The translations under genes were made by a program, and so were the position numbers. The notes below the pieces were generated by a model. The model saw only the letters and a list, made by a program, of their open reading frames with translations. It did not search any database and was not told the origin of the DNA. Of a DNA stretch of 31,510 nucleotides, positions 8,701 to 29,191 are shown in pieces. The stretch spans positions 1 through 31,510 of the IMG/VR virus record IMGVR_UViG_3300021371_000067. The stretch is one strand, 5' to 3'. Position 1 is the stretch's first letter; the number at the start of each line of letters is the position of its first letter. This DNA is from a virus.

Positions 8701-11700
8701 TGTGGTAGGAGAGGTTGAAGTAGCAGTGTCTAATGTCTGAAAAGACATGCTAGTACCTCTTGTCGTGTAAACAGAGTCGTCGTTAATCTGGTGCAGAATT
8801 CTACCAATTGTTCTTTGAGTAGTGCCGTTGTAGGTAGAACCTCTAAATACAATTCCTTGACCAAAACCAGTATACTCCAAGCTTGTTGTATGCTCTGTTT
8901 CTAGCGTTAAAACATCAATTGGGGCATTTCTATCACCAGTAGTCCCTACATATGCGTGGAGCTTAGTATCTGGACTAGTTGTTCCTATACCAACGTTGCT
9001 ATCTAGAATATAAGAACTATTGCCTCCAGCAGAAAGTCTTACTTTATTCACGCCATTATTATGTCTAAGGTAGAGACTGCCGTGACTACTCTCTTGACCT
9101 AAAGCCGCTATTTTAACTGTATTTCCAGAGTGTACTAATGTTATTTCATCTATATTACTCCCTGATGATTTTACTTGTAGTTTAGAATTAGGACTATTTG
9201 TTCCTATACCAACGTTACCAGCAGAAATGTGGTTAGCTGTTCCATCAGTATAGAAAGCTATTTTTTCTACACCCCCGTCATACATGTGGAATCTAGCTCC
9301 ATCAGTGGATTTCTCTGCTATTTGAACAATAGCATTAGTATTGCTGTTTCCCTGTATTGTTAAAGCAGAGTCTTTTGAGCTAACACTGTTTGATTTTATA
9401 GTTAAAGGCGATGTTGGACCCGTTGTTCCTATACCAATATTACCGTTTGATTTAATATATAGACTAGATGAACCAGCACTACCTGATCGTGGGTCGCCTG
9501 ATAAGAAATTAAGATGTGTAGAGTCTAAATAGATTTCACCTATACCACCAGCAGAGCTATCAAACCATAACCTTGGCGATTGCCCTCTTAAAATTAGTTC
9601 TGCTCCGTTAGTTGTGTCAGAAACAGCGAGAGTTGTTATTGTTGAAGTGTAACCACTAACTAAAGGGGCTGGCCCTATATGAAGTTTAGCTACTGGATTA
9701 GTTGTTCCTATACCAACATTCGTTCCATTATCATATGCAGCTCCAATCCCTAAGGTATCTGAATCTATCCACCTCGCTAGGTAATTAGCGGTTCCTGAGC
9801 CATCAACTGGCCCCGCTCCGATTGGCATTTCAATTACGTTACCAGAGGAATCAACGCCTAGTTTTTGCGTTACTGTCCCCGTGAATGTTCCAGCTCCGTA
9901 GTTGTTGAATTTAATAGCTCCAGCGGAGCTAATACGCATTCTTTCGGAAAGGACAGTGAAGAAAGCTAGTTCCCCAGTATCAACATTTGTACCATTTTTA
10001 AATGCTCTTATTTCCGCTACCCTACCGTTAGAAAGCGTTGATTGATGGTTTGTAAATGCTAAATAAGCGAAATCATCAGCGTCATCAGCGTCTGAACTTC
10101 CAGATAAGACTAACCCAGCTTGTTGAAGAGTTGTTGAAGATGAAGATCCTGCTGAAACTTGGAGCGCAGTTTCTAAGAAACCAAAATTATTTGGACTAGC
10201 TGTTCCTATACCAACGTTGCCGCTCAAGTCTTGGACAAAAGCATCTGAATCTGATGAAGGTCCAATATTTAATTTACCACTAGCATCTTTCCATATTCTA
10301 TGAGAAGTTGCATGTGAACTTGTTATAGCTAGACCATCAGACGCTGAATTACCTTTTTGTCTTAGGTGTAATGTTCCTGAACTAGCTACCCCTACACCAC
10401 CATCTATTATAGTTTGACCATCTTGCTCAACGACAAATACAATATTACTGTCATTACTTGTAGATGTGTTGCTTTGGATTTCAAATCTATTAGTTGTGTC
10501 ATCATTATTACTATCAATAAGTAATCTAATATCTCTGGTTGATGCAATTTCAACTTCTTGACCACTTGCAGATTCGATTCTAACTGTTCCGCTAGAATTT
10601 GTAATAGCTCCATTGACATCTAATTTAGCTGCTGGACTCGCTGTTCCTATACCAACGTTACCTGTAGATTGGTCAAGAAGCATTAATGAAGCTGCTGCTT
10701 GGGCCGTATTTGTGCTATGTCCATCCGTTACCGTAGCCCCTATTGTTAATTTTCTAGGACTCCCATCCAAAGTTCCTAAAAACCAATTATAGTGGTTACC
10801 CGAAACTGAATGATTCATCGAAATACCAGCTTCGGCAGTGCCAGATGTCTCTCGTATTTGGATTACGGGTGTGTTTCCTTCTACATGTAGTTTTGTATTT
10901 GGACTATTCGTTCCAATACCAACGTTACCTGTATTTATATAAGAGTTTCCATCTACATCTAAAAGAATTCCAATGGCATTACTTGATGTCTTGAGTTTTA
11001 TAGAACTAGCGTCATATTCGCCCCATCTAGTTGAAGCATTCGTATAGTCGTATAAAAATATCTGGTTGTTCTTAGCTGTTTGTGCAAAGTGTAAAGAGCC
11101 TCCACTAGCTTTAAAGTAAGCGTTGCCATTTGATAATGGCTCTATAGTAAAGTAGTTGGAGGCATCATAAGAAACTCTCAAATCTCCAAACACATCTAAC
11201 TTATCAGAAGGTGTGGTTGTTCCAATACCGACATTACCATCACCTGCTGGAGTCCCGATATACATAACTGTTCCAGCACCACCTACGATATGAATAGGTT
11301 TAGACCAACTCTTCCACTGCCAATAAGTTGAGCCTAATCCAAATCTATAAGTTGTTGCACCCCAGTCTATGTGACCATTATTCTCAATCTGTAACGCAGT
11401 AGTAAAAGAATCTCCATCTAGAATTAATTTACCCCCATTGCCATCAGAACCTAAAGGTTGAAGCGTTAAATCTCCAGTAGCTTGGATAACATCAAGAACA
11501 CCACTAACCCCAGAGAAAGCGTCAACGTTAATCGTTCCTGTAGCGGAAGGAGTTGCATCGAGGATTTCTTGAAGTGTTTGATCGTCAGTCTCAGAAGTAA
11601 GATAACCTTGGGAAGCTACCCAAGATTCGGAAGCTATCTGAGAACCCGTTAGTTGTGCGCTAGTCTGACCACTTAAAACAATAAGATCACTACCATACTC

Positions 11701-13782
11701 ACCCATCGTGATCTTGTCATATGTAGAAGTGGATTCAACCTCTACGATAGGGAGACCAGCGGCATCGTTGACTGAGAAGACGGTTCCGGTAACTTCATCA
11801 GTTACCCCGAATAAACGGCCATTCGAACCGTCTACACTGAAGTCTCCACCAGCAATATTAAACTCACCAGTTTTAGAGAATACACCTCCTGAGAAATCCA
11901 AGAACAAGGCATCATCAGCGTCAGACTGTTTAGTTCTATTATCGTTATCACTAAGGTAGACTGCACCTTGGTTTGTCACATTGACATAAGAGCCAAAAAC
12001 TTGCGCCCCAGCAGCACCACTAACAGTATTGTCGAGACCCCCACCAATGAAACCATAATCAGAAGTAACTATCGAATTGTCCTTACCTCCTCCTATAACA
12101 GCATAATCAGATCCTGAGATATCGTTATTTACGCCGCCAATACTACTAGAGTAATCTGAGTCTATTATATCTATACCGGATCCAGCCCCTATAAAACTAA
12201 AGTTGCCACTGCTAGTGCCGGAAATAGTGTTTTGAGTTCCAGCTACTATAGCGTCATAGTCGCCTTTAATTAAGTTTTGTGTACCCAATAATATGGCAGA
12301 ACCATATGAAAAAATCCTGTTACCAGATTGATCTGAAGCACCGCTAACATTAAAGATAGCCTTGTCAGACTCGAAAAATAAAGCAGAATCACCCTCAGAA
12401 CTGTCACCATAAATCTTAGATCTAGCATTTTTCCTAAACTCTATACCGTTTTCATGCAGGCTGTAAATCGGGCCACGGAAAGTTGATACTGCACTGCCAT
12501 TAGTTGTCAAGCCATTACCTAATGTTAGCAAACCACCAATACTCATTGCTGTGGTGGTGGATGCATCAGCGTCACACACATCCTGCAGGTCCAAAGTGTA
12601 CAGGTCTCCACTTATAGTGTTTATAGCTGTAGTATTATTCCCTACATTTGTCGTGTTACTAGTTACATAACCGCTCAAAGTATTTATTGAGCTAGTATTT
12701 GTCGAAATATTCGAAGTGTTAGTGCTGATGTTAGAAGTGTTTGCCGAAACATAAGAACTTAATCCATACCTACCATCCAAATCCGCCGTCTGGTCTGCCG
12801 CCCCATCGACACTCAATGTTAAAACACCATTGCTGGTATTAAAGTTAGCACCAGTAAGGTAAAAATTATCAGAACTTCCAGCTTCTGAAGGAGATAAAGG
12901 TGTAAAACCTAAAGCTCCTGTCACGTCACCACTAGATATTTCAGTCAAATAATTTGTGTTGGGCTTCTCTGCATACTCAAATTTGAAAGGGCCGACTGTC
13001 CACTGATCACCCAGACCAATTGTACTGTATGGTTTTATCGTTAGGTACAGATCACTACCAGTAAACTGAGGAACATTCTCTTCAAACAAAAACACACTTT
13101 GATTTTTGTTTTGAGATAAGGTTTTTGTAGCTGCGAGATGATCCGCAGACAAAGGGTTGCTATCAAAATATGTAGACCCTGATGCCCAGTATATATCAAC
13201 ATGATCAAAGTTGGTATACTCAGGGCTGTTCAAGAAATCAAAATCAATTTTTAATTGTCCAGAAACTCCAGATAACACTTGGGTAGACGCAGACCCAGCA
13301 GAAGAGGTAAACTTGTGTCCAGTAGCTGTATCTGTTACAGTAACTGATGAAACTCTTGGCCTGTTCCCGTAAAAATAAAACTCACTAGTAGTAACATTGT
13401 CGTCCCGGTCTTTGATCTCAGTTTTTATACCAAAATGTGGCGCATAAAAACCAAAGATGTCTATATTGTTCTGCTCAGTAAAGGTGAAACTGGACTGCTT
13501 GTAGCCAGATTGATAATTAGCATAGGCTACTGAACCATCTGGTTCTAGTATACTTATATTTGATTCTGTAAGGAACGCACTTTTTAGAAAATCTCTAGCG
13601 TCCGTAACTTCCTGACCGTCCCTGTCTTGAATCCGAAGATTTAAAGTTAGATCTCTATAGTTATGAACACCGCTACCACTAGAAGTCTGAGTTACGTCTG
13701 TAGTATTTCCACTGTATACAGAATCAAATTGAAACAAGCCTGTATTGTATAAAGAGGAAGAATATGTATAAAAGTTATCCAT
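2734..13782 (-). CDS. Giant modular tail fibre protein (3682 aa)
   Basis: This gene fills over a third of the window. The first 300 residues are beta-rich, likely the mount onto the tail tip. Residues about 345-395 are Asn/Thr-rich heptads (SNISTNTSNIST) suggesting a trimeric coiled-coil stalk. Residues about 490-600 carry YadA-head-like repeats (SDYAVIGGGKDNSI). Residues about 850-2640 hold 16 cassettes, each opening with a version of GNVGIGTTSPSAKLDVNG. The motif LPLAGGTMSG recurs at about 1927, 3127 and 3254. Six copies of a (L)xIYHDGSxSYI block occur, four of them in tandem near 3270-3520. The last 110 residues (KSFLVDNP, HGVYVRG, VELPEEW) form a distinct terminal domain. The S74 intramolecular chaperone usual after such repeats is absent. 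It starts 1 nt after the J stop. Role: host receptor recognition, assigned from repeat type and position. Confidence 0.9.
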   Translation of the reverse strand: MDNFYTYSSSLYNTGLFQFDSVYSGNTTDVTQTSSGSGVHNYRDLTLNLRIQDRDGQEVTDARDFLKSAFLTESNISILEPDGSVAYANYQSGYKQSSFTFTEQNNIDIFGFYAPHFGIKTEIKDRDDNVTTSEFYFYGNRPRVSSVTVTDTATGHKFTSSAGSASTQVLSGVSGQLKIDFDFLNSPEYTNFDHVDIYWASGSTYFDSNPLSADHLAATKTLSQNKNQSVFLFEENVPQFTGSDLYLTIKPYSTIGLGDQWTVGPFKFEYAEKPNTNYLTEISSGDVTGALGFTPLSPSEAGSSDNFYLTGANFNTSNGVLTLSVDGAADQTADLDGRYGLSSYVSANTSNISTNTSNISTNTSSINTLSGYVTSNTTNVGNNTTAINTISGDLYTLDLQDVCDADASTTTAMSIGGLLTLGNGLTTNGSAVSTFRGPIYSLHENGIEFRKNARSKIYGDSSEGDSALFFESDKAIFNVSGASDQSGNRIFSYGSAILLGTQNLIKGDYDAIVAGTQNTISGTSSGNFSFIGAGSGIDIIDSDYSSSIGGVNNDISGSDYAVIGGGKDNSIVTSDYGFIGGGLDNTVSGAAGAQVFGSYVNVTNQGAVYLSDNDNRTKQSDADDALFLDFSGGVFSKTGEFNIAGGDFSVDGSNGRLFGVTDEVTGTVFSVNDAAGLPIVEVESTSTYDKITMGEYGSDLIVLSGQTSAQLTGSQIASESWVASQGYLTSETDDQTLQEILDATPSATGTINVDAFSGVSGVLDVIQATGDLTLQPLGSDGNGGKLILDGDSFTTALQIENNGHIDWGATTYRFGLGSTYWQWKSWSKPIHIVGGAGTVMYIGTPAGDGNVGIGTTTPSDKLDVFGDLRVSYDASNYFTIEPLSNGNAYFKASGGSLHFAQTAKNNQIFLYDYTNASTRWGEYDASSIKLKTSSNAIGILLDVDGNSYINTGNVGIGTNSPNTKLHVEGNTPVIQIRETSGTAEAGISMNHSVSGNHYNWFLGTLDGSPRKLTIGATVTDGHSTNTAQAAASLMLLDQSTGNVGIGTASPAAKLDVNGAITNSSGTVRIESASGQEVEIASTRDIRLLIDSNNDDTTNRFEIQSNTSTSNDSNIVFVVEQDGQTIIDGGVGVASSGTLHLRQKGNSASDGLAITSSHATSHRIWKDASGKLNIGPSSDSDAFVQDLSGNVGIGTASPNNFGFLETALQVSAGSSSSTTLQQAGLVLSGSSDADDADDFAYLAFTNHQSTLSNGRVAEIRAFKNGTNVDTGELAFFTVLSERMRISSAGAIKFNNYGAGTFTGTVTQKLGVDSSGNVIEMPIGAGPVDGSGTANYLARWIDSDTLGIGAAYDNGTNVGIGTTNPVAKLHIGPAPLVSGYTSTITTLAVSDTTNGAELILRGQSPRLWFDSSAGGIGEIYLDSTHLNFLSGDPRSGSAGSSSLYIKSNGNIGIGTTGPTSPLTIKSNSVSSKDSALTIQGNSNTNAIVQIAEKSTDGARFHMYDGGVEKIAFYTDGTANHISAGNVGIGTNSPNSKLQVKSSGSNIDEITLVHSGNTVKIAALGQESSHGSLYLRHNNGVNKVRLSAGGNSSYILDSNVGIGTTSPDTKLHAYVGTTGDRNAPIDVLTLETEHTTSLEYTGFGQGIVFRGSTYNGTTQRTIGRILHQINDDSVYTTRGTSMSFQTLDTATSTSPTTKLHIDYDGNVGIGTTSPSEKLEVGGNLKIASIGTGNSASSYDLLFYGTTSSGTQTDQAAIHTSPWATNTNGGNLIFETSNTSNALAERMRIDGAGNVGIGTTAPALQSGGTGLHINAASNSELKFTNNTTGTTASDGTAFVSSGSNFTINNREAGTLSLGTNNQVRLSINSSGNATFAGSVTATDGTLTGDLTVSGDVEFTGLNSASASPFVVSDGGTLGTRTAAQVLSDIAALPLAGGTMSGNINLNDDIKVRFGNAQDLELYHSSAGDSYIVNKTGVLDIRNTVHGGDIKLQAENSSGTLQEYFRVDGGAGLNIFYKDSFYGDGRKALFGDNSDLQIYHDGSASYIDDTGTGNLFVRANAQFVVQKYTGETLFKGIADGAVELYHNNVKKFETTSNGVSVTGNVLASNNVYAAGSNGFVFGSSTSEGEYIYRSGNDIRVLAGGADRLTVDGDAGNVGIGTTTPGSKLVVAGGTDTSYNDGTLKVVGNIALNSANNLNPGLNRWALRVRAGGTEGSFDIYDARNSLSRLTINSSGEVGIGTTSPSFKLDVNGTASTDRLIVNQAVNGTNDLLIKSAGGTYTHSIGADTAGYNLKISTIVSTTLDMASSGGKFYINTGGNNSWQIGSDFIAPAAAGAGGVGHINAGHSGYFGFYTIGSTTSMPVFYLNDRTANDTYGFKLITKNGGTTNNTIVADNDGNVGIGTTNPNHKLDIESASSASSIRLKRADTNDSLILLEGTNYGYLQNTTGPLGLGGSNYDRDILIDTSGNVGIGTTNPSHRLDVESTDDVVASFNSLDNKCAIALNDDDTTVYLSAENGKGAFGFQAGTHANNLNIDTSGNVGIGTTSPSAKLDVNSSSGFGISVERGIEDGSRDGYGHSFGAGNAHILGRSVILESTLWFSNPSPDATTSTYNIATNSSNKLVVNRVVGGTTQDSNILVVDSSNVGIGTSTPSKKLEVTGDIKASATVEAARVHISSDLRHAGDEDTKLNFGTDTINLITAGTTALTVDSSSDVTVNNDLVVSGNFTVNGTTSTINSTTLQVDDKNIELGTVATPTDTTADGGGITLKGATDKTINWVNSTGAWTFSERVAITPDGSPSVPAITFSGDTDTGLLRFASGSSDTLGITTGGTLRAQFNPSGIISSANVYSGTSGQFRNFGGVWKATTGATGNGFQFISVDATALTISSTGDATFAGDLSADNITSTSNGGSASIYINSTRPTLGFTDSNSFTDPNDIYIIRGSGGNKIQFQWYDDSASSTTETFSIDNTGNATFAGSVNISTPASITPNTGASELVVGSGVGSQGITIYSGDTSAGSIHFADDLDEEGAGDNPAGNRDGVIIYSHSANNFDFKTAGNQQALALSNSIATFANNVTVANNATISGDLTVSTDFEAASAVTFSSLSNNASYDGILVQSAGDVHFRTKANILSDIAALPLAGGTLTGDLRISATDPTITLIDSSGANTDPNGTIIFSEVSGTTNFDINYNGASDRLEFRGLISSTLTDLVYIKRSSTDTVEVFGNVTASSFIKSGGTSSQFLKADGSVDSNTYLTTSSASSTYLPLAGGTMTGSTLHGDSVSSYWGSGNDLRIQHSGGSGSIYNITGDLNIINDATDGDILFKSDDGSGGITSYLQLDGGGVLTRAYKNFRAQDGIRIQAGSSGDFSILHNGTDSYLENDTGDLYIRNNADDKDIVFQSDNGSGGVTEYFRLDGSSASTYAYTVFPDLSVLSIGTGRDFEMHHNGASTYLTNKSGSLQISNSQDDGDIIFKSDDGSGGTTEYFRLDGSTEQNVVSKNMRFEDNIQAQFGQGTDLRIYHDGSNSYINETGTGDLIIKGGNDILFQDSVGNTLANMNESNSVELYYGGSKKFETTSGGVTVTGHLSATTKSFLVDNPKTGGKLQYGVVESDEHGVYVRGKSDQEVVELPEEWDWLVHEDSVTVQLTSVGQMQQLFIVEQNNKRIKVSGLAPNGQYNYVVHATRKDVDALEKHLK
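3190..3960 (-). repeat. Four tandem IYHDG-type fibre repeats, about 75 aa each
   Basis: Within the fibre gene four consecutive units share the pattern LRIYHDGSNSYINETGTGDL followed by a segment like DIIFKSDDGSGGTTEYFRLD. Unit spacing is about 220 nt. Two more diverged copies occur at about 7.65-7.93 kb. This is a phage-fibre shaft repeat type, and the units are related but not identical, which fits old tandem duplication. Confidence 0.8.
5855..11235 (-). repeat. Sixteen-copy NVGIGT cassette array with a conserved 17-nt core
   Basis: The plus-strand core GTTCCTATACCAACGTT, encoding NVGIGT on the minus strand, is exact at 5855, 6167, 6380, 6590, 7316, 8399, 8660, 8981, 9200, 10202 and 10643. 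Variants lie at 7076, 9425, 9704, 10910 and 11219. Every interval is a multiple of 3 (210 to 1083 nt). The sequence between cores differs from cassette to cassette, whereas the core is kept even at synonymous positions. Confidence 0.92.
11980..12310 (-). repeat. YadA-head-like beta-roll repeats within the fibre
   Basis: About six units of 14-17 residues with the pattern hxGxxNxxSGxxAxIGGG (for example SDYAVIGGGKDNSI and GFIGGGLDNTVSG) resemble the left-handed parallel beta-roll of trimeric autotransporter heads. They imply a trimeric collagen-binding-like head inserted in the proximal fibre. This is read from the repeat pattern only. Confidence 0.7.
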
Positions 13783-18807: not shown

Positions 18808-19189
18808 TGCAATCCTTTACCCTGTTAAGTATACTTACATCTAAATCCATGTTTTTAGGCTTATAAATATGAATTTTTTTAGTTTCCAAGCTATAGATCA
18901 AGAAAGGGTCACAGCAACTCTCTGCCATTTTAATGTCAAACTTAGAAGGTTGCTCACTCCCCTCTATATGGCTATGGTAAATAGCCACCATTTCACACTT
19001 ATCTTTGAACAATAGATAGTCGATAGGATCTATCATAAAGTATTTAGAAGGATCTTCTGATATGTTGTCTTGTTGACTAACGACATACTTGTTTGAAGAC
19101 CTATCGTAACCCAAAAAACCACAAATCTCTATATATTCGTTAGATTCGCATATTTTCTTTATGGTTTTTAAAGCTTGTTCTTCATTCAT
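18794..19189 (-). CDS. K: JAMM/MPN metalloprotease, N-terminal half of lambda gpK
   Basis: The 131-aa protein carries a full JAMM zinc-protease signature: Glu21 in EICGFLG, then His72-Ser-His74, seven residues, Ser82, two residues, Asp85 (HSHIEGSEQPSKFD). Lambda gpK has this domain followed by an NlpC/P60 cell-wall hydrolase domain; the second part is absent here, and no NlpC/P60 Cys-His pair occurs in the adjoining genes. All zinc ligands and the catalytic Glu are kept, so the enzyme may be active. Its position between L and I matches lambda. In that context it would process a tail-tip component or act during DNA entry (inference). ATG overlaps the L stop as ATGA. Confidence 0.88.
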   Translation of the reverse strand: MNEEQALKTIKKICESNEYIEICGFLGYDRSSNKYVVSQQDNISEDPSKYFMIDPIDYLLFKDKCEMVAIYHSHIEGSEQPSKFDIKMAESCCDPFLIYSLETKKIHIYKPKNMDLDVSILNRVKDCNDQN

Positions 19190-21069
19190 TGTTGGGAAGG
19201 TCTTGGGTTGTAGTCATACCCATCTGTCCCCGGAAACCCTCCGAAAGGCAAAAAGAAGTACTCCTGTGTGCTTTCTACAAAATCTGTAGTTTCATTAATA
19301 TAGCTAACTGTCTCGAAATTATCAGATCTCAAATCTCCATAACCAGTAAGATGCAGGTTGTGAGAAGAGCTGTCTAAAAGTCCGGTTTCTGAACCTAAAG
19401 CTCCTGTATTCATATCATACCAAGCTACTAAACCACCTGCACCAGCTTCCCCAGTTAGTGTAGCTAATTCCCCAGTACACTGAGAATACTCCAGAGGCAT
19501 AAACACATCCTTGAATGGAGCATCCCTAGACACATTTGTCTTTCTTAGTTTTGTCAGCTCATCAGTTGTTAAAGCCCGGTCCCAAACACAAACTTGAGCG
19601 ATATCACCCATAAAGGACACATTGTGGCGAGGCGCTGTTCCAATTTGTTGAAGCTCGAACAAAGAAAAGAAATCTGGCGTATTGTCAGATGTGCTTACAA
19701 CACCTTGGGCTTTTTGTTTTATAGTGTCATTCCAAGAGTGAATCAACTGTTCTTTGTTCCAAACAATGGAGGCAAAACCAAAGACGTTTTCTTTTCGAGT
19801 TTCTTCTCCAAAAGATTCACTCAAAACGTTCTTTACACCCTTTTGGTAGTAGTATAAAGGTGAAGTCTTTTTTGTTGTGTTCTGGACCCTATTGATTTGG
19901 CCATCGTGACTAGAAGAGAATATGGTCTTTATTGAGTCCTGCGATTTTGTATTTCTTAACCAAAAGGTTATGCTAAAGGCTTTTGCGTTTGAGTTTTGGA
20001 AGGTCAAGACTGAATTAGCACTAGTAAATAAACTAGCTGCACTAGCAAACTGAATACCGACAGGGCTTGACTCTGACCTCTCTTTAAATGAAACATATTT
20101 CAAATCTTGTGATGCCGCACCAACGAACTTTTGGTAAGTCTTTGTATCGCTAAACCTTCTTTTACAGGACTGTATGCTTTTGCTACAGTTATCCTGCTGC
20201 CAATAACTAGGATTATTCTCTGGAAACTGGGGGTTTGTTGAGCTATGCGCTTGAACACACACGTACCAAGTCCTAAAGTAAATTGGCAGTCCGTTCTTGT
20301 CCCTATCTATTATTAATTTTTTGTTCTCAAGGTAACAGGCTGTAAGCTTGTTATCATCACCATTGCGTGTCACAAAATACTGATTGTTTGCGTTGTATTC
20401 AAAACGGGAAGTGTTAAAATCATCTTGTATATCAACATCTACAATATTACCACTTGGGTCTTTAAAAGGTTCCGCAGTTGCTGTTTCTACAGGTTTACCT
20501 TGGTATCCGCAACCTAACCCCCTGTATTGCCAATAACAATACTTAGCATTTACCGTTCTTTGATTTACATCAAAATTGTCTAAATCTGTTGGTAAATTCA
20601 ACTCAAACTCCACATAATTGAAGTTCTCTAGTACCTTTTGCCCTATTAAATACTTCTCCTCTGTGATTTCTGCATTCCCATCTGCGACACCGAAAGGGTT
20701 GCCGCCATCAAAGTTAATATCATCTAAGTGCTTCACAAACACTTTTTTTCTGTATATTACGGCATTTTTAAGATCTGAGTACTGTTGCAACAACACAGTG
20801 ATTATCTTATCTGTATTAGCTATTCTAATCTTCGGCCTAGGTAAAGTCCCGTCTCCAAAGATGCCAAAACCCTCCGTATCTACAGCTAAAGGCATATATT
20901 GTAAACCGTTCCAAACTATAGGGTTTTTGAATACAGAACCCGGATGAAAGGTGTAGAATTTACTAGGTTCGTTTTTAAAATCAGGGTATAACAAAAAAAG
21001 CTCCAGAACCGCCGTGGGTTGTAGATCTAATAAACTTTTCGCTGCCTTATTCCTTCCTTCAGATGCCAT
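19186..21069 (-). CDS. L: Tail-tip protein L with [4Fe-4S] cysteines fused to a LamG-like domain
   Basis: The first 310 residues are lambda-gpL-like: TFHPGSVFKNPIVWNGLQYM near 40-59, then Cys178-x8-Cys187 (YCYWQYRGLGCGYQG) and Cys295-x6-Cys302 (DNCSKSIQSCKRRF). Lambda gpL coordinates an iron-sulfur cluster with four cysteines in the same paired arrangement. About 105 residues, including an aromatic segment (YFRTWYVCVQAHSS), separate the two pairs, more than in lambda. Residues about 320-560 form a concanavalin A/LamG-like fold (FSITFWLRNT; FMGDIAQVCVWDRALTTDEL). The tail ends FGGFPGTDGYDYNPRP. Length (627 aa) is far above the roughly 230 aa of lambda gpL because of the fusion. It is the first gene of the tail-tip operon, preceded by a GTGTAA motif 8 nt from the ATG. 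Confidence 0.88.
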   Translation of the reverse strand: MASEGRNKAAKSLLDLQPTAVLELFLLYPDFKNEPSKFYTFHPGSVFKNPIVWNGLQYMPLAVDTEGFGIFGDGTLPRPKIRIANTDKIITVLLQQYSDLKNAVIYRKKVFVKHLDDINFDGGNPFGVADGNAEITEEKYLIGQKVLENFNYVEFELNLPTDLDNFDVNQRTVNAKYCYWQYRGLGCGYQGKPVETATAEPFKDPSGNIVDVDIQDDFNTSRFEYNANNQYFVTRNGDDNKLTACYLENKKLIIDRDKNGLPIYFRTWYVCVQAHSSTNPQFPENNPSYWQQDNCSKSIQSCKRRFSDTKTYQKFVGAASQDLKYVSFKERSESSPVGIQFASAASLFTSANSVLTFQNSNAKAFSITFWLRNTKSQDSIKTIFSSSHDGQINRVQNTTKKTSPLYYYQKGVKNVLSESFGEETRKENVFGFASIVWNKEQLIHSWNDTIKQKAQGVVSTSDNTPDFFSLFELQQIGTAPRHNVSFMGDIAQVCVWDRALTTDELTKLRKTNVSRDAPFKDVFMPLEYSQCTGELATLTGEAGAGGLVAWYDMNTGALGSETGLLDSSSHNLHLTGYGDLRSDNFETVSYINETTDFVESTQEYFFLPFGGFPGTDGYDYNPRPSQQ

Positions 21070-21419: not shown

Positions 21420-21593
21420 ATGAACCAAGAACTAACAAGGTATAGGGTGTATGACAAAAAGGGTCAGTACCACCACTCATATATTTCAGAAGAAGATGCC
21501 ATCACCTGTGCTAAACACGTAATGGGTTCCGTTAAAATTATAGAAAACGATTCAGAAAAAGAAGTTTTCGTTGTAAGTAAGAAAAAGAAATGA
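21420..21593 (+). CDS. Small hypothetical protein (57 aa)
   Basis: Reads MNQELTRYRVYDKKGQYHHS to a Lys-rich end (VVSKKKK). It starts 1 nt after the previous stop (TAA-A-ATG) and ends in an ATGA overlap with the next gene, which makes it a tightly packed genuine gene despite its size. A beta-alpha-beta pattern (RYRVYDKKG; SEEDAITCAKHVMG; VKIIEND) suggests a small globular protein. No family recognised and no motif pointing to a function. Confidence 0.65.
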   Translation: MNQELTRYRVYDKKGQYHHSYISEEDAITCAKHVMGSVKIIENDSEKEVFVVSKKKK

Positions 21594-21886
21594 TCTCTAT
21601 AATAAAAGCATTGACCCAAAGCCTTAGACTTTACCTTGAGTTGAGGAATAGGTTGGCGTTTTTTGAGATAAAAAATAACCATAGAAGGATAAAAAATGAA
21701 CTCATTAATGAAATTGAAGAACTACGGGCTGCTGGTGATAGCAACTCCTCTGATCGGGCTGACCTCTTGCGGAAGCGGCTCAAGTCCGAAAACGACGACT
21801 TTGAACATATATCAACCGTCTTCATTAAAGCTCAAGGCGGGGGCTCCAATTCAGACTCAGGAGGGGGTATACACTCCTCCAACTGA
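21590..21886 (+). CDS. Small helical protein overlapping a lipoprotein gene (possible spanin partner)
   Basis: A 98-aa protein with an amphipathic N-terminal helix (ISIIKALTQSLRLYLEL), a charged coiled-coil-like middle (INEIEELRAAGDSNSSDRAD, LLRKRLKSENDDF) and a Gly/Ser-rich tail (AQGGGSNSDSGGG). Its last two-thirds overlap a lipoprotein gene in the +1 frame, the layout of lambda Rz/Rz1. Unlike a normal inner-membrane spanin it has no clear N-terminal transmembrane helix, so the spanin assignment is uncertain; the coiled coil fits, the membrane anchor does not. The tail beyond residue 80 is low complexity and may be shaped by the overlapping frame. ATGA overlap with the preceding gene. Confidence 0.6.
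   Translation: MISIIKALTQSLRLYLELRNRLAFFEIKNNHRRIKNELINEIEELRAAGDSNSSDRADLLRKRLKSENDDFEHISTVFIKAQGGGSNSDSGGGIHSSN
21683..21689 (+). promoter_or_regulatory. Shine-Dalgarno for the embedded lipoprotein gene
   Basis: AGAAGGA ending 6 nt before the ATG at 21696, inside the coding sequence of the 98-aa gene. It favours independent initiation of the embedded gene and decides the start at 21696 over a second in-frame ATG at 21708. Confidence 0.65.
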
Positions 21887-21944
21887 TGAGATATGGCACT
21901 CTGACGCTCGATACAGGAAGCTAGAAAGAGAACTTTTCGATTAA
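21696..21944 (+). CDS. Embedded lipoprotein, Rz1-like outer-membrane spanin candidate
   Basis: An 82-aa protein with a type II signal peptide: MNSLMKLKN, hydrophobic GLLVIATPLIG, lipobox LTSC with the lipidated Cys at 25, then GSGSS. The mature part is about 58 residues, Pro-containing and polar, ending EIWHSDARYRKLERELFD. It lies mostly inside the upstream gene, shifted +1, with its own Shine-Dalgarno. Size, lipobox and overlap resemble Rz1 (o-spanin), which links to an inner-membrane partner to disrupt the outer membrane at lysis; no endolysin is present in the window and the nearest holin is 2.3 kb away, so the role is inferred. The C-terminal DEIWHSDARYR segment looks like a conserved motif rather than the Pro-rich lambda Rz1. 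Confidence 0.65.
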   Translation: MNSLMKLKNYGLLVIATPLIGLTSCGSGSSPKTTTLNIYQPSSLKLKAGAPIQTQEGVYTPPTDEIWHSDARYRKLERELFD

Positions 21945-21950
21945 AAAAGA

Positions 21951-21980
21951 AACGGCATCCGTAAGGGGTGCCGTTTTTGT
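21951..21980. terminator. Bidirectional intrinsic terminator
   Basis: A 10-bp stem pairs 21951-21960 with 21966-21975 (one G-T wobble) around a 5-nt loop, followed by a T run (21974-21978) on the plus strand. The A-rich left flank (21942-21950) gives a U run on the minus strand. It separates the convergent lipoprotein and PEP-CTERM-like genes and would serve both. Confidence 0.85.
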
Positions 21981-21984
21981 TTAT

Positions 21985-22815
21985 TTATAAGCGCTTTTTT
22001 TTATTCAAAAGCAATATTATCGGTATGGCACTTAGAAGAATAAAGTGGGCTTCTGGGATGGCTGTCCCTGTGGTGCCGTTAAACTTCAGTATATCAGGGT
22101 TTTGCGAGAATGATATGCCATTTAAATAAATGTCATCGCCCTGTTCTGAAAACTTTTCTAATGAACTTAAAGTAAGTTGAGCATTTGGGGCTAAGTTGAC
22201 GATTGATCTTTCAGTTTGACTATTTATTGAAGCCCCAGCTCCTCGTAGAGTTAAACTACTAGTTGAATCTACGTTTATTTCTAGCCCTATCGCAGAGAAC
22301 ATAGCGTTCATACTAGACCCTTCAGTGATATTTAAAGTAGAATAAACATTATCATCATCATTTACGCCAGTAAAACCATTGTTGTTTAGAAAGGTAAAAT
22401 CCGTAGATTTTAATGTTACTGAAAATCCATCGGCGATTTCAATGTGTGAATAAGCGGGGCTATCTTCGATTATAAAGGCATCTGTTATGCTTAATATATT
22501 GGCAATAGGCGAATCTCTGTCTAATTCCAGAGAATCTGATTGGGAAAAATCCCAGTTTGGAGTGTCATAAAAATCATAAATCTCTGCTTCATCTGCGTCC
22601 CAAGTGATAACCATATCTAATTTTTTATCTTCACTTTCAGATATGTCTATAATGTCCTCATTGCTAATCTGGATAGGTCTTTCTGGATTAATTAGAGGAT
22701 TAATATTGGGGTCTCCTATTGGATCCAATATAATTATATTACCTTCTACAGCGGATACAACAGCAGATTTAGCTACAGAAATAATTGAAAATAAAGTTAT
22801 GAGTGTGCGTTTCAT
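21985..22815 (-). CDS. Secreted PEP-CTERM-like protein encoded by the phage
   Basis: The 276-aa protein starts with a signal peptide (MKRTLITLFSIISVAKSAVV, likely cleaved near residues 18-22) and ends with a tripartite sorting-signal-like tail: IPEA near 252, a hydrophobic helix (HFILLSAIPIILLL) and a basic end NKKKRL. This is the organisation of PEP-CTERM signals (Pro-Glu-Pro motif, helix, Arg/Lys cluster) recognised by exosortase; Ala replaces the last Pro. The middle is Asp/Ser/Asn-rich and beta-structured (LTLRGAGASINSQ; ANAQLTL-like), consistent with a beta-helix surface or matrix protein. It overlaps the upstream 63-aa membrane gene as ATGA and ends at a terminator. Inferred role: host-envelope or extracellular modification during infection. 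An alternative is a tail-anchored periplasmic protein unrelated to exosortase. Confidence 0.7.
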   Translation of the reverse strand: MKRTLITLFSIISVAKSAVVSAVEGNIIILDPIGDPNINPLINPERPIQISNEDIIDISESEDKKLDMVITWDADEAEIYDFYDTPNWDFSQSDSLELDRDSPIANILSITDAFIIEDSPAYSHIEIADGFSVTLKSTDFTFLNNNGFTGVNDDDNVYSTLNITEGSSMNAMFSAIGLEINVDSTSSLTLRGAGASINSQTERSIVNLAPNAQLTLSSLEKFSEQGDDIYLNGISFSQNPDILKFNGTTGTAIPEAHFILLSAIPIILLLNKKKRL

Positions 22816-23003
22816 TTCTTCTTTTTGAGTATAAAGTTTTTTAGTTTGGTCAAGTTACCTGTCAACTTACCCAATAACCTACCCAACTTGCTTTCTTCAG
22901 GGACGATATAGGAAAGAGTACCCAATAAACCGATGATTGAAATAATGAACTCAGGCATGGACCCCATATAAGGGGCAAGTATTTTATCAAATAAATCTTG
23001 CAT
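22812..23003 (-). CDS. Small one-helix membrane protein, holin-like
   Basis: A 63-aa protein with one hydrophobic segment (MPEFIISIIGLLGTLSYIV, residues 16-34) and a strongly basic C-terminus (KLKNFILKKKK). The size and topology suit a small holin, pinholin or antiholin, but such features are generic. It sits between the acidic protein gene (5 nt upstream) and the PEP-CTERM-like gene (ATGA overlap), and a clear LydA-type holin lies 1.3 kb away, which makes a lysis-related role plausible but unproven. Confidence 0.6.
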   Translation of the reverse strand: MQDLFDKILAPYMGSMPEFIISIIGLLGTLSYIVPEESKLGRLLGKLTGNLTKLKNFILKKKK

Positions 23004-23008
23004 AATAA

Positions 23009-24241
23009 TTATTTTTTAATCATATTAGGAAGTTTTATGACATCAGGGACTTGAGTAACCTGATCATCTTCTTCTAGTTCGAATGTTTCTTCTGGGTTCT
23101 CTATATCTGTTTTTTTCTTTTCACCCTCTTCAGGCTGTTCTTCAGGCTCCCCCTCTTCAGATTCTTCCTCCACTTCTTCTTGCTCTTCTTCCTCTTTTTC
23201 CTCTTCTTCAGGTTCCTCTTCTTCTTCAGGTTCCTCTTCTTCTTCAGATTCCTCTTCTTCTTCAGACTCTTCTTCCACTTGCTCCTCTTCGGACTCCTCT
23301 TCGGACTCCTCTTCGGATTCTTCTTCGGATTCTTCTTCGGATTCTTCTGTCTCCTCTCCTTCAGTTTCTTCTTCAGTTTCTACAGAATCCTCTTCTTTAA
23401 CAGCTTCTCCTTCGCCTTCCTCATTATTTTCTTCTGTAGGTTCGCCCTCGTTTCCTTCAGCTTCGTCAGATGCTTCACCCTCCCCCTCTTCACCAACAGA
23501 CCCTTCATCTTCTCCCTCTTCTCCTCCTTCGTAACCTTCTTCAGACGTACCTACAACATCTCCATAACCCTTTTCAGCGTATTCTACAATCGCTTCGGTA
23601 ACACCACCAAAAGGTTGGAACCCAATTGTCGTCTCAGTAAAATCATTTAAATTAGAAAATATCTGGTGTTCCTGCTCTGCTACAACAGCTATTTCAGTAC
23701 CTTTTTCTTTTGTTGTTTTTGCTTGGAAGTAAGCTCCACTGCCTATGGACATAGTTCCAGCGACCCCAATTGTTCCTACTTTTTGTACCGTCTCTTGTAC
23801 AAAAGCACTTAAACCAGTAGCGGCACTTGCTGTTTGGGTTGTTGCTCCAGCAGCGGCTACAGCAGCAGTACCTTTTGCAGCTTTATCTAGAATATCTTTA
23901 TTTTTCTCAGCTATTTCACTGAGTTTATCCATAGTGGAGGTCTCAGGAGTTTCAGATTTGACTTCCTGACTTTTACCCTTTTTAACTTTTACCTCTTCTT
24001 CCCCAGCTTCTTCTTGCGAAAGTTCTTCTTCAACAACCTCGTCTTCTACTTCGGCACCACATTCCTCGCAAACACATTGTTTGCTCTGCTCCTCTCCCAA
24101 CTTCTGCAGCAAAGCCCATGCAGTCTCTCTAGCGTGACGGTCCAGATCGGATATGATATCATTATCCTCTGGATTACAATATTTTTTTGCAAAAGCTATC
24201 GCCTCCGCAAGATTTTTGCGATTTTCCCCGTCCATGTCCAT
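23009..24241 (-). CDS. Extremely acidic low-complexity protein with a Cys-rich knuckle
   Basis: A 410-aa protein in three zones. Residues 1-50 are a normal helical sequence (NLAEAIAFAKKYCNPEDND). A zinc-knuckle-like cluster follows: Cys56, Cys58 and Cys61 (CVCEECGAEVE). Residues about 115-185 are Ala/Gly/Thr-rich and moderately hydrophobic (AAVAAAGATTQTASAATGLS). Residues about 225-385 are almost entirely Glu/Ser/Gly with SEEE and EEEP repeats. I recognise no family. Such polyacidic tracts mimic nucleic acid or bind basic proteins, or they buffer or scaffold; none can be chosen from sequence. It leads an operon with a membrane peptide and the PEP-CTERM-like protein and is divergent from the holin. 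A GTGTAA motif lies 6 nt before its ATG. The tandem repeats imply unstable length. Confidence 0.75.
   Translation of the reverse strand: MDMDGENRKNLAEAIAFAKKYCNPEDNDIISDLDRHARETAWALLQKLGEEQSKQCVCEECGAEVEDEVVEEELSQEEAGEEEVKVKKGKSQEVKSETPETSTMDKLSEIAEKNKDILDKAAKGTAAVAAAGATTQTASAATGLSAFVQETVQKVGTIGVAGTMSIGSGAYFQAKTTKEKGTEIAVVAEQEHQIFSNLNDFTETTIGFQPFGGVTEAIVEYAEKGYGDVVGTSEEGYEGGEEGEDEGSVGEEGEGEASDEAEGNEGEPTEENNEEGEGEAVKEEDSVETEEETEGEETEESEEESEEESEEESEEESEEEQVEEESEEEEESEEEEEPEEEEEPEEEEKEEEEQEEVEEESEEGEPEEQPEEGEKKKTDIENPEETFELEEDDQVTQVPDVIKLPNMIKK
23207..23260 (-). repeat. 18-nt tandem repeat, three copies, in the acidic gene
   Basis: Plus-strand unit TTCAGGTTCCTCTTCTTC at 23207-23224 and 23225-23242, with a one-base variant (TTCAGA) at 23243-23260. 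It encodes repeated EEEEPE/EEEESE on the minus strand. Near-identity suggests recent slippage expansion. Confidence 0.9.
23288..23347 (-). repeat. 12-nt tandem repeat, five copies, in the acidic gene
   Basis: Plus-strand unit TTCGGAYTCYTC occurs five times back to back (first two TTCGGACTCCTC, last three TTCGGATTCTTC), encoding ESEE units. The block substitution pattern indicates two duplication events rather than selection on protein alone. Confidence 0.92.
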
Positions 24242-24285
24242 ATTAACTTACACATTAATTTGTTTTTAAGTGTAATATATTTTAC
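24242..24285. promoter_or_regulatory. Divergent promoter region with inverted GTGTAA motifs
   Basis: Forty-four bases separate the divergent starts of the acidic gene and the holin. TTACAC (24248-24253) and GTGTAA (24270-24275) form an inverted pair, each pointing at its own gene, with 6 and 10 nt to the respective ATG. No Shine-Dalgarno is seen on either side. Confidence 0.55.
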
Positions 24286-24600
24286 ATGGATTTTAAAAAT
24301 ATAATCGGGGAATTCTTCAATGGTGGATGGTTAATACCCCTGATTGGAGCTTCAGGGATGGTAGCAAGGATGCTGACTTATAAAGGGGAATATTCATTAA
24401 AAACATTCATAAGGAATGTTATTGCTGCAGCAATACTGTCCGGCATACTCTGGTTTGTGCTTCAAGACGCCCCTATAAGCGACTTTATAAAAGCAGTATC
24501 TTACGGGGTTATCGGGGTTGTGGCCCCAGAAATCATAAATGGGATTATTGCACTAGCCAAAAAGTTTGAGAAGAACCCAGATAAGTTTATTAAAAAATAA
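24286..24600 (+). CDS. Phage holin, LydA / holin superfamily III type
   Basis: The 104-aa protein has three hydrophobic segments: residues about 13-29 (GGWLIPLIGASGMVARML), 43-61 (FIRNVIAAAILSGILWFVL) and 68-92 (SDFIKAVSYGVIGVVAPEII), with a basic C-terminus (FEKNPDKFIKK). Pattern and size match LydA-like holins, which form the inner-membrane hole that releases or activates the lysin. It is a single plus-strand gene with convergent neighbours downstream, so it is probably transcribed alone from the divergent GTGTAA-bearing region. No endolysin lies next to it. Confidence 0.75.
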   Translation: MDFKNIIGEFFNGGWLIPLIGASGMVARMLTYKGEYSLKTFIRNVIAAAILSGILWFVLQDAPISDFIKAVSYGVIGVVAPEIINGIIALAKKFEKNPDKFIKK

Positions 24601-26191: not shown

Positions 26192-27305
26192 AAATGTAAA
26201 AATGGTCTAGTTCGTCCCAATATTCTGGAGTATCCAACACATTGTTATCGTTGTCAAGACCTTTCTTGTAGTGAGCATAGCTAAGATATTTTTTATCCGC
26301 CTCAAGAATATATTTGTTCGTCGAAAACTTGCAAGAATCAGGAATCTCTATCCTCTCGGCCTCTTCATATCTAGGGTGGACTTCTACATCGAAGTACTTG
26401 TTACGCAACGGTCCTAAATCACTATCCTTGTTTGCTAGAAGAACCAACCTTATATTCCAAGAAGACAGTATATCAAAATACTCCTTAGGAATATCTTCTG
26501 TATCACTGTCTAAAGCAAACATTAGAGTTTTTACGTTTTCTTTAAACATTTTTAAAATATCTGGCTGTATTAAACCTTCGGAAATTATTGTCACACGGTG
26601 ATTCAAACAGTAGTACATAAAAGCCTCTTCTTCAAACCCATAATCCGCCCTCAGGTATATTTCTTTTGGTAAACCCTCAATAATTTCAGTTGGAACAACC
26701 TCTATTATTTTTTGATTATAGTGAACTCCCACATGAAGCGTGGTTATGTTTGAAGGTACCTTGCCGCCGAGCAGTTTAATAACCGAATTAGCGACTTTTT
26801 CTGGCTTGATTTTATTGATACTGTCTTTTGGATCACGATCAGAATAACATGGTTTTACATCCCAATCAGGCTCTAGACAAACACACTGTTGTTTTTTAGA
26901 CCAATAGGGTTTTGTTACATTGGCATAGCTATTTCCAAACAGACTCACAGTTTTTACACCTATAGAGCTTGCATACTGGGCCAAATAGTCGTCAGACCCT
27001 AGATACAGCATAGATTTAGATATCAAGTAAGAAATGTTCTTGAAGTTACTAGTTATGTGTTTGTTCACGCCTAGTATAGGCTTATCTCCACCCACCTGCA
27101 AAACTTTTATGTTTTTCTCCTGAAGGAACTTCACAAGTAAACTAAAAACCAAAGGGTAATTCCTGTAAGACTTTGAAGCAACTGATGTGTCCCCATTAAT
27201 AATGATATAATTATCAAAATCAATCGGAAAAAAATGTGGAACTACTACAGGTCTACCTATTTTAACACCCAAGTTTTTTGCATACTCTTCTACTAAATGA
27301 GACAT
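26157..27305 (-). CDS. C-terminal half of a GT9 glycosyltransferase fused to an unknown domain
   Basis: The 382-aa protein begins MSHLVEEYAKNLGV, a motif normally found inside heptosyltransferase-type GT9 enzymes (HLVERY-like). It continues with the GT9 C-terminal Rossmann half to about residue 180: FDNYIIINGDTSVASKSYRN, VLQVGGDKP, GSDDYLAQYASSIGVKTVSL, a cysteine pair region (Cys141, Cys143, Cys153) and IKPEKVANSVIKLL. The catalytic-region pattern nDSG...H of GT9 reads SDDY...Q here. Residues about 185-382 (LHVGVHYNQKIIEVVPTEII onward) match nothing I know. The N-terminal Rossmann half is at the end of the upstream protein; the two genes join by a TAATG overlap. They probably form one split enzyme acting on a nucleotide-sugar and glycan acceptor; the substrate is unknown. 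Confidence 0.65.
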   Translation of the reverse strand: MSHLVEEYAKNLGVKIGRPVVVPHFFPIDFDNYIIINGDTSVASKSYRNYPLVFSLLVKFLQEKNIKVLQVGGDKPILGVNKHITSNFKNISYLISKSMLYLGSDDYLAQYASSIGVKTVSLFGNSYANVTKPYWSKKQQCVCLEPDWDVKPCYSDRDPKDSINKIKPEKVANSVIKLLGGKVPSNITTLHVGVHYNQKIIEVVPTEIIEGLPKEIYLRADYGFEEEAFMYYCLNHRVTIISEGLIQPDILKMFKENVKTLMFALDSDTEDIPKEYFDILSSWNIRLVLLANKDSDLGPLRNKYFDVEVHPRYEEAERIEIPDSCKFSTNKYILEADKKYLSYAHYKKGLDNDNNVLDTPEYWDELDHFYIYEQKENSEKGS

Positions 27306-29191
27306 TACCTTAAAGAAAATTGATTTTTACTTAACCCGTTATGGATATAACAAGGATTTTTTTGGGTTGTTATATTGGGATAAAACACCATGTCAAATAA
27401 ACCTTTTTCTGACCCTCTGCCCTCTAGAGCAAATGTATTTTCCAACTGCTGCGTATAAGGAAGGAGTTTATGAAGATTTTGGTTGTCTTCAATAAATTCA
27501 AAATACTCAACCTTTGTGAAAACGTATATGTTGTAATCCTTGTAGTTGTTTTTTAACTGCTTAAGTAGAGAATTTACCAATAGCACATCTGTCTCTGACT
27601 CCGGTATAATAACGGCAATCCTGCTACCCTCGTCATCACTTAGCAAATCCCCTAAACTAGGTTTACTACTCTGGGTGTTGTGGTTCTGAGCGACTCTTTT
27701 AAAGTGAGTTACTAGATCATCAGACTTCATACCTTTCGCCAGTTTATCTTTCCAGTGCTTAAACCCTTTACTGTTTCTATCCACATCTTCATCCACAACA
27801 TTCTTATAAAGGTCAATTATAAACTCATCTGAATTCAAACCTTCTGGAGGGCTGTAATCGGCATTCATGAGTTTTTTAGTAGTGTCGTAATCGTAGTCAA
27901 CTTCGGGCATGTTATCTATAATAGACTCCAACTGTTTACCGATTACTTCAACAGAAAAATTATCAACAACCCACTGTCGAGACTTTTTACCCATTTCCAA
28001 CTTATCCTTTTCTGACATGTTGTAAACATGACTAAGCATAGTAGAAATATGCTTCGGGTCTGTACTAGCTTTGATAAACTGAGTCCCCGGCTCCCTATAC
28101 TCATTCCAGTTCAAAGGGAAGCCCCCACTTTCCTCAGAGCAACTATCTTCACCGCAAGAATAATTGGTGACTAACGTAACAAGTTCTGTAAGTTTGGCCT
28201 CTTGAATAGGTATCTCTTGACCACCACTTGTAAAAGGGTGACAGTAAACGTCCATCAGGTTGTAAATCTCATTTAACTGCTGTTCAGTAACACCCTTTTT
28301 AGTATTTGTCGTATTTACTGTTTTTTTCGACCCGCAAGACGGACAATCAGTCTGCTGACCTTTAAAGGGACTGATATAATAAGTACCACAAGACTCACAC
28401 ACGTAAGTAGTTAGAACATCTATACTAGCTATACCCTTCTCATCTATTAATTTTTTAATGTCCCAACCTTCTCCCCAGTGAGTATGCAAGAGTAATTTAG
28501 CTTTTGAATCTGGATTTTCATCTTTAAACTGCCTAAAGGCTTCAAGTAGGTTAGGGACAGACTTCCTCAACTGATTTCGGAAGACAAAACCAATAATAAA
28601 CTCGTCATTTAGTCTATGGTGGTCCCTAAGCTCCGCCCTATCTTCATCTGGTATTCTGTAGAAGTTTTTAGTATCAAGAGACCCTCTTAGTGTTTTAACA
28701 TGGTTGTAACCCATTTCATTCATAGCTCTCTCTGCGAAACTAGCCCAGACAAAGTAGTTTTTTATCTTTGGGGCGTACTCTACAGCCTGAGGTAAGATTG
28801 GAAGACTATCTAGTGTTGTCCACACCATGCAATTAACCTTATTCCACCAAGGTTTTTGATGAAAATTATTAAAGGCCCAGATGTCCTCTATGCCAATATA
28901 AACGTCAGGTTTGAACTCCTCCACAGCTTTATCGACTAAACTAAAACCATAGCCCTCTGCCCTCCTTGATTTAGCATCTAAAGCAGCTAAGCTTTGAGAA
29001 CTAGGGTTAGCACCTCTACACTCCCAAGGCACTAGCTTGGTCCTAGGCTCCCCCCACTGCAAACCATTAGCTAACTCAAACAATTCATACTTCCCAGTAT
29101 CGTATAGATACCTAAGTATATTTTTTTTGTTTTTACCGAACCCGGTAAAAGCTTTGCAAAAATTAGAATGAATTAATACCTTCTTTTTCAT
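27305..29191 (-). CDS. GT4-type glycosyltransferase with zinc ribbon, DUF4214 and N-terminal GT9 half
   Basis: A 628-aa mosaic. Residues 1-425 form a GT-B glycosyltransferase of GT4 type: KKVLIHSNFCKAFTGFGK, then the second Rossmann half from 196 (FIIGFVFRNQLRKSVPNLLE) and the donor-binding loop SGGQEIPIQEAK with Glu331 kept as the second Glu of E-x7-E while the first position is Gly323. A zinc ribbon interrupts it (Cys265, Cys268, Cys283, Cys286). Residues about 452-503 match DUF4214 (FIIDLYKNVVDEDVDR, GFKHWKDKLAKGM). Residues about 523-620 look like the first Rossmann half of a GT9 enzyme (RIAVIIPESETDVLLVNSLL). It likely glycosylates a host-surface or virion component. ATGA overlap upstream and TAATG downstream. 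Confidence 0.75.
   Translation of the reverse strand: MKKKVLIHSNFCKAFTGFGKNKKNILRYLYDTGKYELFELANGLQWGEPRTKLVPWECRGANPSSQSLAALDAKSRRAEGYGFSLVDKAVEEFKPDVYIGIEDIWAFNNFHQKPWWNKVNCMVWTTLDSLPILPQAVEYAPKIKNYFVWASFAERAMNEMGYNHVKTLRGSLDTKNFYRIPDEDRAELRDHHRLNDEFIIGFVFRNQLRKSVPNLLEAFRQFKDENPDSKAKLLLHTHWGEGWDIKKLIDEKGIASIDVLTTYVCESCGTYYISPFKGQQTDCPSCGSKKTVNTTNTKKGVTEQQLNEIYNLMDVYCHPFTSGGQEIPIQEAKLTELVTLVTNYSCGEDSCSEESGGFPLNWNEYREPGTQFIKASTDPKHISTMLSHVYNMSEKDKLEMGKKSRQWVVDNFSVEVIGKQLESIIDNMPEVDYDYDTTKKLMNADYSPPEGLNSDEFIIDLYKNVVDEDVDRNSKGFKHWKDKLAKGMKSDDLVTHFKRVAQNHNTQSSKPSLGDLLSDDEGSRIAVIIPESETDVLLVNSLLKQLKNNYKDYNIYVFTKVEYFEFIEDNQNLHKLLPYTQQLENTFALEGRGSEKGLFDMVFYPNITTQKNPCYIHNGLSKNQFSLR

Follow-up and report, generated by a model that had tools for sequence, protein, structure and literature searches.

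A phage gene for a predicted secreted protein with a PEP-CTERM-like C-terminal tail in a recurrent three-gene operon

Do phages place proteins of their own into the exosortase sorting system of their hosts? The question is raised by a gene in the window (the whole stretch of viral DNA that was analysed, a 31.5-kb metagenome-derived phage contig), whose product had been predicted from the letters alone to be a PEP-CTERM-like secreted protein. Exosortase sorting is a bacterial system, with archaeosortase as its archaeal counterpart, and in the open-access literature we found no description of a phage link to exosortase or of phage-borne PEP-CTERM proteins. Judged from sequence, the gene product is probably a secreted surface protein whose sorting tail is of the exosortase type, and the gene is the third of a moron operon. 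The contig carries lambda-type tail genes L, K, I, and J (minor tail L was identified by Pfam at 2.7e-37, and K-, I-, and J-type tail proteins were identified too). Minor tail L (19186-21069) has a LamG/concanavalin-like domain fused at its C-terminus, and two more LamG-like proteins were recognised by inspection at 612-1772 and 1775-2467. Downstream of the J protein is a giant ORF of 3682 aa (2734-13782), parts of which are related to ORFs in the tail region of a 118-kb relative. The product of 27305-29191 is a phage glycosyltransferase that contains a zinc-ribbon-like segment as well as a DUF4214 domain.

A 276-aa ORF matches positions 21985-22815 exactly, with minus as its coding strand; the plus strand of the same interval has stop codons throughout. 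Its translation begins with MKRTLITLFSIISVAKSA and ends with GTAIPEAHFILLSAIPIILLLNKKKRL, and the organisation that had been noticed here, a signal-sequence-like start and a tripartite tail, is confirmed, on the minus strand. No family was assigned to the protein by Pfam, NCBIfam, or PHROG. The gene had also been grouped with a membrane peptide and an acidic protein, and the three do form a tight operon in which it is the third gene: the gene for the 63-aa peptide starts 5 nt past the stop of the gene for the acidic 410-aa protein, and the ATG of the tagged gene overlaps the stop codon of the 63-aa gene. Family library searches with the acidic protein gave no match. The operon occupies the minus strand between holin-like and spanin-like genes of the plus strand; these last names are given from architecture and position, as the family libraries yielded no useful match. 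The features are as follows (class 1 denotes the body of this protein, as distinct from the class-2 bodies described below).

21985-22815, minus strand: tagged gene P0001, class-1 body with PEP-CTERM-like tail, 276 aa (ORF and translation; 32 homologues)
22762-22815, minus strand: signal-sequence-like stretch, residues 1-18 (inspection; conserved in homologues; class-2 starts are similar)
22060-22494, minus strand: predicted beta-helix, residues 108-252 (AlphaFold2, pLDDT mostly 47-87; best Z 9.5)
21988-22062, minus strand: tail of AIPE, hydrophobic helix, and KKKRL, residues 252-276 (translation, homologue comparison, hydropathy)
22812-23003, minus strand: 63-aa membrane peptide, the best-conserved cassette gene (identity across relatives; precedes the tagged gene in both classes)
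23009-24241, minus strand: acidic 410-aa protein, encoded first in the operon (ORF, conserved locus order)
24248-24253, minus strand: GTGTAA, putative late promoter element, 12 nt upstream of the acidic-gene start
24286-24600, plus strand: holin-like 104-aa membrane protein, divergent from the cassette (conserved cassette flank)
21590-21886, plus strand: inner-membrane-spanin-like 98-aa protein, convergent with the cassette (position, nested reading frame)
21696-21944, plus strand: outer-membrane-spanin-like lipoprotein with an LTSC lipobox, nested in the 98-aa gene (architecture)
21948-21978, plus strand: terminator-like hairpin where the spanin-like and tagged genes converge (weak on its own, one being found against 3.2 expected in shuffles)

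The tail has the layout AIPE-AHFILLSAIPIILLLN-KKKRL, with alanine as the third motif residue (IPEA). Comparison of the window protein with its homologues from 32 viral contigs revealed that all 33 proteins share AIPE and that its codons vary synonymously at every position, while the residue that follows it is A, I, V, S, M, or F (P in one). Pairwise identity averages 83.5% for the body and 56.1% over the 16 residues after PE; on these alignments, this is how a short recognised motif would look when the helix behind it is kept for hydrophobicity alone. In the window the tail has a mean hydropathy of 3.02 over 13 residues and a PE-to-basic spacing of 16; a hydrophobic helix of the ~14-residue length typical of PEP-CTERM is present (modelled at residues 258-275), as is the terminal basic cluster, which is KKKRL here and comprises 2-4 basic residues in all class-1 tails. 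A search for this tail geometry among 1237 distinct ORFs from the fetched loci returned 76, all within class 1 and class 2. The tail of the class-1 protein as read from the sequence is not a chance arrangement, since AIPE is invariant despite synonymous variation, the helix drifts faster, and the pattern is confined to two families.

Is this a PEP-CTERM protein? The published layout consists of PEP, 14 hydrophobic residues, and 5 basic residues (PMC1569441). The window protein has an invariant PE (33/33) in place of the near-invariant Pro-Glu-Pro; its N-terminal stretch is signal-sequence-like by inspection only, and is conserved in the homologues. Neither the protein nor its tail matched the PEP-CTERM HMMs, including TIGR02595 (curated cut-off 16 bits), even at E 10; PEF and PEFG models gave only chance-level matches of single members. 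A close class-1 homologue (L043) has a true AIPEP and reaches 14 bits across the full 24 positions of TIGR02595, and it also matches three PEP-CTERM families at their C-terminal ends. Because there is no HMM match and the third motif residue is alanine, the window copy is, in strict terms, only PEP-CTERM-like: by its sequence, a PE-A variant that falls outside the family proper. The original prediction was right in kind about the tripartite tail and rightly cautious about the change from proline to alanine, and the strict membership does not hold. It had also named two signs that would together speak against it, the lack of a PEP-CTERM HMM match and homologues with an ordinary tail anchor and no IPE[AP] motif; the first is what we found, and the second is not, as all homologues keep AIPE, and the proteins that take its slot in other phages attain canonical PEP-CTERM scores.

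Some phages have the same 63-aa gene followed by a different secreted body (for example L065, L066, L070, and L071), whose C-terminus is again PE, a helix, and basic residues. This class 2 is present in 42 viral contigs. Its tails range from APEL, PIPEL, and VVPEAN to VVPEPATV and SIPEPSTS, that is, from PEL, PEI, or PEA to the canonical PEP, and five of the 14 records tested exceed the TIGR02595 cut-off (best 28 bits). Across the 48 distinct tails of both classes, the PE-to-basic spacing is 15-18 residues, which fits the published PEP-CTERM layout (PMC1569441). Against NF038120 (PEP_CTERM_QFxxD), 12 of 14 class-2 members match (best 1.1e-8), and the class-2 bodies of these other phages do so up to the C-terminal end of the model; the phage members among the scores listed fall far under its cut-off of 80 bits, and the window protein does not match it at all, only the class-2 proteins doing so. 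Profile comparison of the two classes (hhalign) aligned nothing beyond the first 34 residues, and past these the class-1 body of the window is unrelated to class 2 as far as the comparison can test; homology of the two bodies was therefore rejected. Thus, at the level of sequence, the tail is a conserved module carried on two unrelated bodies in one operon slot and grading into canonical PEP-CTERM, and this apparent exchange of bodies is the strongest evidence for reading the tail as a sorting tag.

The timing of expression is suggested by motifs upstream. In the window, GTGTAA stands 12-16 nt ahead of three transcription units (at 14-16 nt for minor tail L and the holin-like gene, in addition to the acidic gene); in related loci GTGTAA or GTGTA recurs upstream of the acidic gene, GTGTAA being found in 14 of 38 distinct upstream regions. 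In other lineages, 10 of the 11 loci examined have xATAAATA 21-34 nt upstream of the acidic gene, in most of them as TATAAATA, the T4 late promoter motif. From these late-type motifs, the cassette is likely expressed late, alongside tail and lysis genes. The mechanism we favor is sorting of a late moron to the surface by the host: the protein would be exported through the Sec pathway and held in the inner membrane by the hydrophobic helix and the basic end; a host exosortase would recognise AIPE, cleave nearby, and pass the body to the cell surface or its exopolysaccharide. As for the purpose, we tentatively suggest that the surface of the dying cell would be altered in a way that keeps phages from adsorbing to it or to its debris; this is the least certain step, and is modelled on outer-membrane morons of other phages.

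The protein could instead be sorted in just this way for nutrient capture or glycan binding, in a metabolic or biofilm role, a reading that competes with the anti-adsorption purpose only, and not with the sorting step. The predicted structures bear on it. The class-2 model (pLDDT 75) is a jelly roll whose nearest folds are DUF4465/BtuJ B12-binding surface proteins and carbohydrate-binding modules (Z ~9-10), and PEP-CTERM proteins are linked to exopolysaccharide and floc formation (PMC1569441). The likeness to DUF4465/BtuJ proteins and carbohydrate-binding modules is one of fold only, and the window protein differs: its class-1 model has a beta-helix at residues 108-252, as had been expected for its middle, and the C-terminal helix, at a low confidence (mean pLDDT 51). 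Foldseek found nothing below E 0.5 with this model, while a second structure comparison returned beta-helix proteins (best Z 9.5). From the models, both folds are plausible candidates for surface binding, but a shared fold proves no function, the class-1 body lacks the fold in question, and the late-type promoter motifs would leave scant time for metabolic gain; we regard a nutrient or glycan role as rather unlikely.

The neighborhood of the operon raises another alternative. Most class-1 and class-2 loci with sufficient flanking sequence share one gene order (acidic, 63-aa, tagged, and then the spanin-like genes that converge on them), despite differences in the surrounding phage genes; by this gene order the operon is a recurrent cassette, wedged between holin-like and spanin-like genes. 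The 63-aa peptide shares 90-95% identity within most of the near clade and 33-40% with distant phages, in which the small peptide is often still encoded upstream of the tagged gene. The outer-membrane-spanin-like protein has ~300 relatives in viral contigs; the holin-like 104-aa protein matched a weak PHROG of unknown function and nothing else in the family libraries, and its gene is directly upstream of an endolysin-like ORF in L165. This lysis-region position with its conserved flanks, the resemblance (by inspection) of the 63-aa peptide to small holin-like peptides, and the absence of an HMM match for the window protein would all suit an ordinary periplasmic lysis protein, anchored by its C-terminus, with the tail as an inner-membrane tether and no sorting. 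But a plain anchor needs no invariant PE, no fixed spacing, and no pair of unrelated bodies, and some copies are canonical PEP-CTERM; nor does the tagged gene show a recognised lysis family or a nested Rz/Rz1 arrangement, the nested pair being on the strand opposite to the cassette. Moreover, in two contigs (L134 and L135) the spanin runs straight to the holin with no cassette between them, and a scar at ~4247-4312 retains the last 15 tail codons, reversed, beside the spanin-like gene, reading ALPIILLLRRRTRFN and then a stop, as in L048; L165 likewise lacks the cassette and retains the spanin and holin genes. Because the tail scar is kept, the losses in L134 and L135 are, on sequence grounds, deletions and the cassette is accessory. 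We find a tethered lysis protein improbable.

Next to the tagged gene, two podovirus contigs (L107 and L073) have a T7-type head-tail adaptor; this, the structural genes around it in the window, and the occurrence of beta-helix and jelly-roll bodies in phage tail and decoration proteins could point to a virion component (a head decoration or tail spike precursor) losing its tail at assembly, but a signal sequence and membrane tail would lead out of the cytoplasm, where virions are assembled, and the cassette moves among unrelated structural contexts and can be lost, so that we hold this to be very improbable.

Returning to a sorted surface protein, in distant phages a gene with a barrel-like C-terminus (YRLTF, YRLKF, or NYTF) may come after the tagged gene. 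Such outer-membrane-barrel-like ends were seen in L065 (7784-8455), L066 (1496-2167), L109 (10732-11403), L102 (11016-11846), and L113 (7072-8238); in L186, L187, and L192-L195, it is the spanin-like gene that is followed by a gene with a similar end. It is possible, though we would not yet favor it, that unrelated phages of exosortase-bearing bacteria share a late surface-remodelling operon that, by way of the host exosortase, displays a phage protein and excludes other phages or prevents re-adsorption. Its parts would be an acidic protein, a small membrane peptide, a swappable exosortase-tagged protein, and sometimes an outer-membrane barrel, and it would cover lambda-tailed phages, T7-like phages, and phages with T4-type late promoter motifs.

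Which host would supply the enzyme? No exosortase is encoded in the 16 phage records searched, which points to dependence on that of the host. We scanned genome contigs for class-1 relatives, as a prophage route to the host, and found none; for class 2, the scan returned two phage-like contigs from a metagenome-assembled genome (G013) labelled Flavobacteriaceae, and one Planctomycetota homologue. G013, the sole genome with close class-2 copies, gave no exosortase match. Its two contigs (L074 and L075) carry the cassette and spanin-like genes, L074 also a holin-like gene, and probably come from phage, having been binned with this genome in which no exosortase match was seen. Two exosortases are present in one Planctomycetota genome that carries a class-2 homologue; across 149 Planctomycetota genomes, the class-2 profile matched only G014. 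Kin of the spanin-like gene occur in four contigs (L180, L182, L183, and L199) together with a gene for a 580-aa secreted PSCyt2-PSD1 (DUF1549-DUF1553) protein, at 4813-6555 in L180; the domains were confirmed in L180, L182, and L199, and are unusual phage cargo. Of 21 Planctomycetota genomes, 12 have PSCyt2 above its cut-off, against none of 14 control genomes. These PSCyt2-PSD1 proteins in phages with related spanin-like genes, together with the two-exosortase Planctomycetota genome that has a class-2 homologue, suggest that the host probably belongs to the Planctomycetota or Verrucomicrobiota. The terminase of the 118-kb relative was tried as a hint to the host and set aside, its matches being distant and mostly Gram-positive. 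Among 50,697 isolate phage records searched by tblastn, the tagged, 63-aa, spanin-like, and two class-2 proteins all had no match.

If phages do use exosortase, surface sorting would be part of the phage-host contest in such bacteria. The tails would also offer natural short substrates with a relaxed third position for studies of exosortase recognition, and the cassette would be a marker predicting exosortase-bearing hosts of uncultured phages.

The closest known system is that of PEP-CTERM (TIGR02595) and exosortase EpsH/Xrt (PF09721). Similar to its substrates, the window protein combines a signal-sequence-like start, PE, a helix of ~14 residues, and a basic end; the bodies are variable in both, and same-slot proteins of other phages exceed the curated cut-off, but the window copy has PEA rather than PEP, has no HMM match, and is phage-borne. 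Exosortase and archaeosortase tails without PEP are known, namely PEF-CTERM (TIGR03024), PEFG-CTERM (TIGR04296), and VPEID-CTERM, so the third proline is dispensable in some sorting tails of this kind; the tail described here likewise lacks it, but its signature is not the same as theirs. Among phages, lambda bor and lom and T5 llp encode outer-membrane morons, either lipoproteins or beta-barrels, and bor is a neighbor of the Rz/Rz1 spanin genes, encoded on the other strand. The window protein resembles these in being a putative accessory phage surface protein, and differs from all of them in its exosortase-type tail.
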